Positions 10,682-49,292 of a stretch of DNA of 64,000 nucleotides are shown one piece after another (position 1 is the stretch's first letter; the number at the start of each line of letters is the position of its first letter). A program made the translations under genes and the position numbers. The notes under the pieces are model-generated. The model had not been told where the DNA came from and did not search any database. It worked only from the letters and a program-made list of their open reading frames with translations. Source of the stretch: Kribbella sp. NBC_01245 (lineage in GTDB: Bacteria; Actinomycetota; Actinomycetes; Propionibacteriales; Kribbellaceae); the NCBI RefSeq assembly GCF_036226525.1, contig NZ_CP108487.1, positions 1,488,001 through 1,552,000 of the forward strand, in the 5' to 3' direction.

Positions 10682-10784
10682 CTTTTCTTTGCGACGAGTG
10701 GACGCGTTTTGCCGCTCGTCCGCTGCCTGTCAGGTGCAGGCTGCCTCGCTGCGGCAAAACGCGTCCACTCGTCGCAAAGAAAAG
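10682..10784. repeat. Perfect 34-base inverted repeat between convergent genes
   Basis: Arms 10682-10715 and 10751-10784 are exact reverse complements over 34 bases, with a 35-base spacer. The left arm begins CTTTTCTTTGCGACGAGTGG and contains GCGTTTTGCCGC. An extra partial copy, GCTTTCTTTGCGACG, lies at 10652-10666. The element fills the gap between the Lrp gene (rightward) and kamA (leftward). The hairpin would end in an A- or T-rich tract on either strand, so it may act as a bidirectional terminator. Confidence 0.85.
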
Positions 10785-17863: not shown

Positions 17864-18191
17864 GCGCGCGATCTTCGCGGGGTGATCACGATCCGCGTCT
17901 TCATGACTCTGTAACGTGACGGGCCTTTCTTTGGCTCGTTGGGGGAGCGTGACGCTATACAGAGCGTGGCCGGTTTCGGCAAATGTGTAACAACGATCTG
18001 TCTGACCATCGCAGAGGTTGACACCAGCCTTTTGGGCGAGCAATGTTTTGCGAGTCGTCAGAACGAAATCTCCAACGGTTCAACAGAAGTTCGGCCACCG
18101 GATGATCCCGCGACGCTGACCAGGCCAGTGCCAGGCCTGAGTCGACGGGGGCTGAGATCCCTGGTGGTTAGCCCCCCGCGGGGCAGAGGTA

Positions 18192-18279
18192 AAAGAGGCT
18201 CGGCGCCCAGTAGACAACGGCCGAGCGGACCGCACCCAGCGGCCCGCCGTCCGGTCCGAAGGGTACGCCGAGCCTCTTT
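18192..18279. repeat. Hairpin with 14-base arms
   Basis: AAAGAGGCTCGGCG (18192-18205) pairs exactly with CGCCGAGCCTCTTT (18266-18279). Inside, CCC pairs with GGG and GGACCG with CGGTCC, so the whole segment can fold as one long stem. A T-rich stretch CTTTTTC follows on the plus strand, which would suit a terminator for the kal operon, though 330 bases downstream. Confidence 0.7.
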
Positions 18280-18448
18280 CCTTTTTCCCCCACCCGCGTC
18301 CCTTCCGCCGCACGCACTTCCGCGCCGCCGCGACCCTTTCCGCCCGCCGCCGCGGACTTCCTCGCGGGCCGCCGCGCACCGTCCGCCGGCTGGCCGCCGC
18401 CAACCCGCGCGGGCCCCATCCACCTCGCGACGTCCACCTCCTCCACCT

Positions 18449-18536
18449 GCGTTGATTCGTCTGCATCCGCTCGCCCCTACCCGCGGCGGGTCAGATGTAC
18501 GGCAACGTGGGCGGGCGGATTCGGACGCATCAACGC
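18449..18536. repeat. 28-base imperfect inverted repeat
   Basis: Arms 18449-18476 and 18509-18536 match at 24 of 28 positions: GCGTTGATTCGTCTGC at the outer left end against GCGTTGATGCGTCCGA in the complement of the right arm. The spacer is 32 bases. The right arm's GGCGGATTCGGAC is also found in the inner palindrome at 49127-49153, so the two loci share a repeat family. Confidence 0.75.
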
Positions 18537-18581
18537 TAAAGGCCCACCCGGTACCAGCCTTTGTGCGGGTGGTGTTGGTTG

Positions 18582-18720
18582 CACCCGTCCCCCTGAGTCT
18601 TCCGAATTGTCAGGCCGGTCCGGGCCGCGTCAAGGGTCCAGATCGGCTAGCGCCGACGCTGACGCGCCCTTGACCCGACCCGAACCGGCCAAAGGCAGCG
18701 GGCTATCAGGGGGACTGGTG
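18582..18720 (+). repeat. Palindromic MITE-like element, copy A
   Basis: 139 bases bounded by 15-base terminal inverted repeats, CACCCGTCCCCCTGA (18582-18596) and TCAGGGGGACTGGTG (18706-18720, one mismatch). A second internal dyad (GGCCGGTCCGGGCC to GACCCGAACCGGCC) extends the fold. Copy B at 19549-19686 is the same element in the opposite orientation at roughly 87 percent by-eye identity, and the similarity continues a few bases beyond the ends. No reading frame and no clear target duplication is seen. Confidence 0.75.
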
Positions 18721-18825
18721 AGGTCTGCCCGGGTTCCAGGTCATCCCGTTCACTGAGGTCTCCGCGTGCATAGGTCCTCGGGTGCCGCATAGGTCGTCGC
18801 TTGCGAGGAGGGAGCCATTGCGGGC

Positions 18826-18862
18826 GTGGGTTCCCACCTCGGATTGCGAGGTGGTAACCCAC
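18826..18862. repeat. Hairpin with 15-base arms
   Basis: GTGGGTTCCCACCTC (18826-18840) and GAGGTGGTAACCCAC (18848-18862) pair with one mismatch around a 7-base loop. It is one of several independent stem-loops in this gene-free region. Confidence 0.7.
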
Positions 18863-18920
18863 CTCCGGCATGGCCAGCCACTGCCCGGGCGGCCCGCTTG
18901 GCCTGAATTCGTGCGCTTCC

Positions 18921-19102
18921 TGAGCGGACTGGACGTTTTCCGGGCCGAAAAACGTCCAGTCTGCTCGGGAAGCTGCGCGCGCGGCCGTCGAGGTGGGTCG
19001 AGTCGTCGGGATTTGGGGCTGGTGGTCGTCGTTGTGAGTCGACTGGACGTTTCTCGGCCCGAAAACGTCCGGTTCGCTCACAAAGCTGGGCGCGCGGACC
19101 GC
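18921..19102 (+). repeat. Two homologous hairpins in direct repeat
   Basis: GACTGGACGTTTT (18927-18939) pairs with AAAACGTCCAGTC (18949-18961). A related sequence follows at 19034-19081: GACTGGACGTTT and AAACGTCC, less perfectly paired, flanked by GTGAG and CTCAC. After each comes GAAGCTG or AAAGCTG and then GCGCGCGG, so a unit of about 60 bases is duplicated about 113 bases apart. Confidence 0.65.
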
Positions 19103-19103
19103 C

Positions 19104-19165
19104 ACGCAGCCACAACCTGCGAGTGAAGCGCTTCAACCCGGCGGAAACCCGACTTGTGGCTGCGT
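19104..19165. repeat. Hairpin with 12-base arms
   Basis: ACGCAGCCACAA (19104-19115) is the exact reverse complement of TTGTGGCTGCGT (19154-19165), separated by 38 bases. Confidence 0.7.
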
Positions 19166-19319
19166 GCCGGTACGCACGGGACCTAGGAAGGCCGAATCGC
19201 CCCTAAGTGTGACCACCGCGTGGACTTGGGCGCCGGCATACCCGACGGGTCAGACGCGACCACTCGCGGCAAAGCTTCGCGCGCGCCAGCACGCGCGCCA
19301 ACTCGGCGCGGCAGCGTTC

Positions 19320-19545
19320 ACATCACCCGGTAGCGTGCAGACCACCCGGCGGCTCGGACGCCAGGTGGGCCTGCGGCACGCACAGCACTCGGTGCCGCAG
19401 TGTGCACAGCACCCGGCAGTACGCACGGCACCCGGCGCGTCAGCGTGCGGCGCAACCACACCACCCGGCAGTGCTCACAGCACTTGGTGCGGCAGCATGC
19501 GACAACCCGGCGCGGTAGCGTGCGGCACAGCCACACCCGGTCAGA
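19320..19545 (+). repeat. Degenerate tandem repeat, CACCCGGC units
   Basis: At least seven irregular units begin CACCCGG or a close variant and continue with GCAGTGTGCACAG- or GCGGTAGCGTGCGGCA-like sequence (for example at 19324, 19345, 19410, 19428, 19461, 19505). Unit length varies from about 20 to 60 bases. It ends directly at palindromic element B. Confidence 0.55.
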
Positions 19546-19548
19546 CTT

Positions 19549-19686
19549 CACCCGTCCCCCTGATAGCCCGCTGCCTTTGGCCGGTTCGGGGTGGGTCAAG
19601 GGCGCGTTAGCGTCACCGTTAGGTGATGGAGCCCTTGACGCGGCCCGGACCGGCCTGACAATTGCGACCACTCAGGGGGACGGGTG
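19549..19686 (-). repeat. Palindromic MITE-like element, copy B (inverted)
   Basis: 138 bases bounded by CACCCGTCCCCCTGA (19549-19563) and its exact reverse complement TCAGGGGGACGGGTG (19672-19686). It is the inverted partner of copy A at 18582-18720; long shared blocks include GGCCGGTCCGGGCCGCGTC and CCGAACCGGCCAAAGGCAG (read in copy A's orientation). Its termini are more perfect than those of copy A. Confidence 0.75.
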
Positions 19687-19750
19687 CCAACGAATGTCCC
19701 GGGCGCGGCAGGCGGTCCGGCAAACTCAAGGCCCGCAGAGGGTGGAGGAC

Positions 19751-20278
19751 CTACGACTGTTGGTAGGTGGGGGTGAGGATGGCGCGGGCGAGGGTGTGGA
19801 AGGCCAGGTTGAAGCTGACGACGGCGGGGGTGGCGTCGGCGTCTACGTCTAGGGCTTCGGTGTCGATGGCGTGGACTACGAAGTAGTAGCGGTGTACCTG
19901 GTCGCCGGCGGGTGGGGCTGCACCGGCGTACGCGAGTTGGCCCATGTCGTTGCGGACGTGGAAGGCGCCGTTGTCGAGGCGCGGGGTTGAACCAGCGCCG
20001 CTAGGCAAGGACGTGACCGAGGCCGGCAGGTTGACCAGGACCCAGTGCCAGAAGCCCGACGGCGTGGGGGCGTCCGGGTCGAAGCAGGTCACCACGAAGC
20101 CCTTGGTCTCGGCGGGGAAGCCTTCCCAGGTCAGCTGCGGCGAGGTGTTGCCGGCCGCGAAGACCTGGTCTTCGGGCATCGGCTTGCCGTCCGTGACGTC
20201 TTCGCTGGTCACGGTGAAGGTGCCGGCCGCGGGGAGCAGCTCGTAGGGGTCCGGGGCGACTGGTCGGTCGAGCGACAT
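19751..20278 (-). CDS. YbhB/YbcL family PEBP-like protein
   Basis: 175 residues from ATG 20278, preceded by GGAGGAG. The phosphatidylethanolamine-binding-protein motifs are clear: [21 protein letters not shown] and the [15 protein letters not shown] strand near the C-terminus. Bacterial members are cytoplasmic and mostly of unknown role. It is divergent from cobT. No signal peptide is seen. Confidence 0.9.
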
Positions 20279-20444
20279 CGATCTCCTCCAGGGTGATCGC
20301 CAAATGGCGTGAGCGCAAAAGTGTGTTGAAGCCGACATTACTGTCCGTCCCGGGCGGCAGCGGTCGGGGGTTTCGGCCGCGGGTGCGAAGATGCGGGTGG
20401 ACAGTCGATGGGTTCACCGTGGTGTGCCCTGTGAAGGGAGTGCG

Positions 20445-48869: not shown

Positions 48870-48952
48870 GGCACCCCAAGGATAGGTGCCCCCCGCCGCC
48901 CCCACACCCGAGTTTCCCCCACGCCCACCCACCCCGACACGCCAGGCGAACC

Positions 48953-49236
48953 CTGTATCCCGTTCATCGGGCCCTTGTGACGCGGCGTGTCGGCGTTCAT
49001 CGGACTCTTGTGACCAGCGCGCGCGGACTTTTGCGGCAATCCGCCAGACACCTGCACGTTGGCATTCATCGGTCCGAATCCGCCCTCTCCTGGGTGCAGA
49101 CCTGTACAGGTGCGCGGTGGTCAGAAGGCGGATTCGGACCGATGAATGCAACGTGCGGTAGGCGGTCGCCGTCGGTCAGAAGGGACCGATGAACGCCGAC
49201 ACGCCGCGTCACAAGGGTCCGATGAACGGGATACAG
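48953..49236. repeat. 284-base nested palindrome upstream of hrpA
   Basis: Outer arms 48953-49003 and 49186-49236 match over 51 bases with one mismatch (left arm starts CTGTATCCCGTTCATCGG). Inner arms 49057-49084 and 49127-49153 also pair (left arm CGTTGGCATTCATCGGTCCG onward), differing by one extra G. The centre holds ACCTGTACAGGT (49100-49111). GTTCATCGG or ATTCATCGG recurs three times in the left half. Part of the inner arm is shared with the repeat at 18509-18536. Confidence 0.85.
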
Positions 49237-49245
49237 ACGCGCCGA

Positions 49246-49292
49246 GGCCGGGGCGCGGGGGCGGGGCGGGGCGGGGCGGGGCGGGGGGGAGG
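49246..49292 (+). repeat. GCGGG microsatellite, G-quadruplex candidate
   Basis: Five consecutive GCGGG units from 49261 to 49285 are followed by GGGGA, with further GGGG runs just before. Many G-runs of four with single-base spacers could form a G-quadruplex on the plus strand. It ends directly at the stop of the secreted-protein gene at 49295. Confidence 0.75.

Follow-up and report, generated by a model that had tools for sequence, protein, structure and literature searches.

A hairpin-rich gap in a Kribbella genome joins a conserved RNA-like gene to one copy of a dispersed palindromic mosaic

The gap at 17864-19750, originally predicted to be a single gene-free island of hairpins 1.9 kb long, is two things: on the left an RNA-like gene (about 17988-18285) and on the right a mosaic of palindromes, the hairpin mosaic proper, which occupies only 18448-19687. 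This mosaic belongs to a dispersed set of about 41 protein-free palindromic islands, an element that has expanded in this lineage and probably spread as a non-autonomous repeat. Positions are those of the window, i.e. the whole 64,000-nucleotide stretch of DNA that was analysed (1,488,001-1,552,000 of a single-contig genome of 8.68 Mb), and "congeners" are other Kribbella genomes. Kribbella, the host of the islands, is a soil bacterium.

The gap is bordered by the end of kal (17863; hotdog-fold thioesterase family, PF03061) and the end of a PEBP-family gene (19751; PF01161). No protein-coding gene was found between 17863 and 19751, nor was any tRNA or tmRNA that could serve as an integration site found in the window; since about 17988-18285 is a conserved RNA-like gene, with a terminator-like hairpin of its own, "gene-free" is true of proteins only. 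The predicted richness in hairpins was borne out: a scan for long inverted repeats gave five strong hairpins in 17864-19750 versus none in each of 30 dinucleotide shuffles, and the same scan gave nine in the whole 64 kb, five of them inside the gap. A repeat search of the gap returned 16 inverted pairs; arms of 93 and 56 nt jointly form two inverted copies, of about 153 bp each, of the element that we call E1. The predicted tandem array is also present, in imperfect form. The features are as follows (H2 was surveyed with a probe, 18842-18884, that covers its 3' half):

17988-18285, + strand: small-RNA-like gene, outside the mosaic; conserved, single copy in the genus
18192-18279, + strand: terminator-like hairpin of the RNA-like gene, then a pyrimidine tract (inverted repeat, hairpin scan, congeners)
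18291-18447, unstranded: C-rich, G-poor spacer directly outside the mosaic (GC skew about -0.15)
18448-18537, + strand: H0, an 85-90-bp hairpin with a sharp outer terminus (about 32 copies with this outer edge)
18582-18734, + strand: left copy of E1, a 153-bp palindromic element (repeat search, genome survey, pairing)
18735-18841, + strand: hb segment, from E1 to the centre of H2, common to several islands
18826-18862, unstranded: H2 palindrome; in sister islands the IS30-like element is inserted at its centre
18915-18973, unstranded: H3, a 59-bp near-perfect palindrome, the most widespread inner module
19030-19087, unstranded: H4, a palindrome related to H3 (repeat search, module survey)
19094-19175, unstranded: H5, a long hairpin with a central loop (repeat search, hairpin scan, module survey)
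19301-19534, unstranded: imperfect tandem repeat array (repeat search)
19535-19687, - strand: right copy of E1, inverted, with no H0 beyond it (repeat search, genome survey)

All 20 congener loci compared have a counterpart of the RNA-like region downstream of kal, with 81-87% identity, and a 211-base probe gave a single strong match in every one of 38 Kribbella genomes. Its alignment contains long invariant blocks, and the terminator-like hairpin is also present in congeners. Pair variants involve G-U in 22 columns versus A-C in seven, as expected for an RNA read off the + strand. Rfam gave no match to 17988-18285, and we predict from the sequence comparisons that it is probably a small RNA, as yet unnamed. 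The suggestion that the gap is a source of structured RNA thus holds for this gene, given its RNA-type pair variation, and was not shown for the mosaic. One may think of Ms1, a non-coding RNA that is conserved in actinobacteria, measures roughly 300 nt and is found in the context of HAD hydrolase and oxidoreductase genes (PMC9130861). The RNA-like gene resembles it in being actinobacterial, conserved and of that length, but differs in its gene neighbourhood and in the missing Rfam match; as it lies downstream of kal, a context other than that published for Ms1, identity with Ms1 is unlikely. The gene is an easy experimental target.

When the genome was searched for the hairpins, modules of the mosaic were found again at about 41 places. 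Because these modules recur in diverged form in a single-contig genome, an assembly artefact, which the original prediction had named as its possible undoing, is unlikely. Genome-wide, E1 occurs about 66 times, grouped in 41 clusters, and pairs of E1 closer than 6 kb are head-to-head (+ then -) in 25 of 25 cases, 0.3-4.1 kb apart. The fuller islands read H0-E1-(variable inner part with H2-H5 and a tandem array)-E1'-H0', i.e. terminal inverted repeats surround a non-coding element, and H2, H3, H4, H5 and tandem repeats recur between the E1 copies in partly conserved order. In many islands H0 lies about 47 bp outside E1, and its outer edge is identical in the roughly 32 copies, beyond which the sequences are unrelated; the island of the window carries H0 on its left side only. 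A few places hold no more than one or two modules, such as H3 alone at locus L023 or a pair of H0 alone at L031; derivatives that arose by deletion, or building blocks of the islands, would look like this. In this survey, which sampled the genome around the islands, gene calls and island boundaries were set by scripts whose gene finder is a simple one based on codon usage. Relative to the flanking genes the islands are 12 convergent, 23 tandem and seven divergent, an orientation without clear bias, and we reject an element tied to convergent genes or to termination. As a separate observation, tandem repeats of about 20-28 bp abut the outer side of H0 at six loci (L014, L017, L019, L022, L031 and L046), the unit differing from island to island.

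The case for mobility consists of empty sites at a few islands, compared between species by means of a chimeric query of flanking-gene segments in three congeners. The spacing between dapF and hflX is 88 and 81 bp in two congeners versus 1341 bp here, a second pair of flanking genes is separated by 68 and 124 bp in congeners versus 584 bp here, and fba and the DUF3151 gene are 233 bp apart in a congener versus 605 bp here, so that the empty site is clear at two junctions and the gap is shorter at a third. At least the islands at those two junctions thus arrived as insertions, the congeners having next to nothing there. Many flanking gene pairs, that of the window among them, are not adjacent in congeners, and therefore insertion is directly shown only at few islands; a blastn empty-site test for the island at L011 gave no match.

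In blastn searches of 36 congeners no match comparable to the E1 copies was obtained, a first pattern scan of genome contigs gave nothing outside the species itself, and no paired islands like these were found in congeners. A covariance model, in contrast, revealed relatives of E1 that are diverged but full-length in 18 congeners as well as two genomes from another family, and partial relatives in a genome from yet another family of the order (G050). The relatives in congeners are mostly isolated. Diverged and mostly isolated as they are, these relatives mark E1 as an old sequence family; of the lineages sampled, only this one has expanded it into paired islands. G050 has multi-copy hairpin islands of its own (L142-L151), which are independent and whose core is related to E1 positions 34-111.

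In the reading that we consider probable, the element would be a non-autonomous repeat that spread by mobility or duplication, similar in behaviour to REP/BIME sequences or MITEs, with its DNA hairpins recognised by a putative enzyme supplied in trans. Islands would have multiplied in intergenic gaps, where they could persist because they lie outside genes, and would have been colonised by other elements. We propose that each island came to have a different set of hairpins as elements inserted into one another, inner parts were deleted and the stretch between the inverted E1 copies was flipped.

REP/BIME sequences comprise GTAG- and CGTC-tagged families (PMC3733652) and can be organised as REPINs (PMC3116915). 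Like them, the islands are palindromic and intergenic, exist as tens of dispersed copies, have head-to-head units in mosaics and are targets of insertion sequences (IS). Their units, however, measure 59-153 bp rather than 20-65 bp (E1 153, H0 85-90, and only H3 and H4 about 59), several unrelated palindromes share an island, and there is a defined outer terminus. H0 does contain CGTC, located inside the stem; the CGTC families have stems of 8-9 bp and are described without mention of actinobacteria (PMC3733652). We also found no RAYT (Y1) transposase, as would be expected for the GTAG class: PF01797 yielded one partial frame of 27.7 bits in this genome and none in four others (G050, G004, G010 and G024), and a RAYT-driven REP was rejected. 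With MITEs the islands share a non-coding nature, long terminal inverted repeats, dispersed insertions and empty sites in relatives, but their interior is itself a set of palindromes, no autonomous parent transposon with H0 ends was found among the island loci sampled, and islands with H0 on both sides have no consistent target-site duplication, which could have decayed. As each class has a defining trait that the islands lack, we treat them as akin to both but place them in neither. The mosaic family is previously uncatalogued (no paper combining Kribbella, repetitive and palindromic was found in the literature library searched). It extends the known repeat families by one, from an actinobacterium, that is large, built as a multi-hairpin mosaic and has defined ends.

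Across 40 aligned E1 copies, which are related so that the counts do not represent independent events, 98.2% of cells are paired and the covariation score is higher than in any shuffle. The changes are mostly two-sided, with 129 Watson-Crick double changes versus 31 G-U and 20 A-C cells. Such compensatory changes keep E1 pairing and do not by themselves separate RNA from DNA hairpins. The strand lean of E1 is weak and inconsistent, G-U exceeding A-C in cells (31 versus 20) but not in columns (3 versus 12), and in H3 and H0 no preference for G-U over A-C was found. The two-sided changes fit hairpins maintained as DNA better than RNA genes; such hairpins might be kept because they are selected to be recognised, or because one arm of the palindrome is copied from the other.

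One may nevertheless consider E1 and the modules around it as structured RNAs or terminators, present in many copies and under RNA-level selection, the islands being clusters of RNA genes. The strong covariation is what such RNAs would leave behind, relatives of E1 occur across several families and in congeners have conserved loops (e.g. GATAGCTGCC), and the C-rich, G-poor lead-in resembles a Rho-loading sequence. We regard this as unlikely, however, for Rfam at both curated and relaxed thresholds gives the mosaic only sub-threshold matches to microRNA-type hairpins, the excess of G-U over A-C that is clear in the adjoining RNA-like gene is absent in H3 and H0 and weak in E1, and copies lie on both strands with no preferred orientation to the flanking genes.

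A second alternative, that the islands are maintained sites of chromosome architecture or recombination, i.e. protein-bound palindromes with a role in the nucleoid, replication or segregation, is in our judgement very unlikely. Their regular, symmetric build would suit it, as would their uneven map, with an empty stretch of 1.96 Mb (p about 0.002), and the loss of synteny of several flanking gene pairs in congeners is compatible with recombination, though not proof of it. Yet no paired-island counterpart was found in congeners, content varies greatly, several islands are broken by IS without evident repair, and the map may merely reflect where insertions are tolerated. That the islands are decayed ordinary DDE transposons or an integrative element, with the hairpins merely as ends, is less probable again: the inverted ends are long (H0 and E1, about 285 bp) and the termini defined, but no coding remnant is common to the islands, there is no consistent target-site duplication, and the inner transposases belong to separate nested IS, of which two have exact junctions within a module.

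The islands serve as landing pads for jumping genes. Identical copies of an IS110 element split E1 at one identical position in four of four islands, and identical copies of an IS30-like element interrupt H2 at its centre in nine of nine, with short direct repeats alongside; IS3-like and IS1380-like transposases also occur in sister islands (the names IS30-like, IS3-like and IS1380-like are read from Pfam domains). The predicted "insertion hotspot" is thereby supported twice over, as sister islands carry four transposase types, of which two occupy exact positions in palindromes, and wherever relatives have an empty junction the island itself is an insertion. Insertion of IS110 into palindromic repeats is known, and insertion at the axis of a palindrome has been described for ISRm22, of the IS4 family (Tobes and Pareja 2006, PMC1525189). 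The fixed IS110 site in a palindromic repeat and the insertion at an axis are therefore like those REP-targeting IS; what differs is that here the axis is taken by an IS30-like element and that E1 and H2 are new families in an actinobacterium. Two IS families that choose two different palindromes with base precision should be useful for studying target choice by IS110, which is directed by a guide RNA. The link between IS110 and E1 is seen again in Kribbella turkmenica (L133, 5529-7190), where two E1-like stretches in direct orientation flank an IS110-type gene.

The genes next to the islands have an unusual composition, which we examined in the flanks of about 41 islands (L011-L049, and 19751-20338 of the window). 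On either side of an island, the strand that reads into it is poor in G and rich in C, and also in A where only purines are synonymous, an effect that fades out within about 300-400 bp; outside 34 H0 termini the sequence is C-rich and G-poor. With p-values that treat flanks as independent, the last 100 nt of genes ending at an island have a GC skew of -0.33, compared with -0.14 for convergent ends elsewhere (p about 3e-5); for genes starting at an island the values are +0.20 versus +0.01 (p about 1e-4), and ends bearing H0 have a stronger skew than those without, -0.42 versus -0.18 (p about 2e-5). In inward-reading genes, fourfold sites within 150 nt are 17% G versus 43% far away, and purine-ending twofold codons near the island are 61% A versus 17% far away.

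The 3' ends of dapF and of the right-hand gene at L028 are normal or nearly so in congeners, with a milder shift in one dapF, which suggests that at these two genes the shift postdates insertion; a pure preference for inserting next to skewed flanks is not sufficient. Nor is a composition made purely by the islands, since the ends of PEBP orthologues are already C-rich in congeners, with a mean skew of -0.29, the values for orthologues of the L011 gene spread from -0.58 to +0.08, and convergent gene ends of congeners are skewed in a similar, if weaker, way. The independent islands of G050 show hardly any flank skew (-0.07). The gradient may be due to strand-specific mutation at a fragile palindrome, to selection, or to a preference for C-rich sites. 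In a tentative and rather doubtful version of the first, the islands would be fragile palindromes that impose a strand-specific substitution bias, with loss of G and gain of C and A on the inward strand, for instance when one strand is repeatedly cut, resected and refilled with errors, and would so rewrite the synonymous codons of their neighbours over about 300-400 bp. If islands do cause this one-sided shift, they offer about 40 natural replicates in which to test palindrome-linked mutagenesis.

The original prediction that the density of hairpins in the gap is unlike any other intergenic region of the window is nearly right, but two other places in it come to mind. One, at about 48930-49260, is a second, nested giant palindrome of a GTTCATCGG...CCCTTGTGAC family, unrelated to E1, and words similar to it occur next to the islands L028 and L048. 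The other is a near-perfect hairpin of 103 nt at 10682-10784, between two convergent genes.
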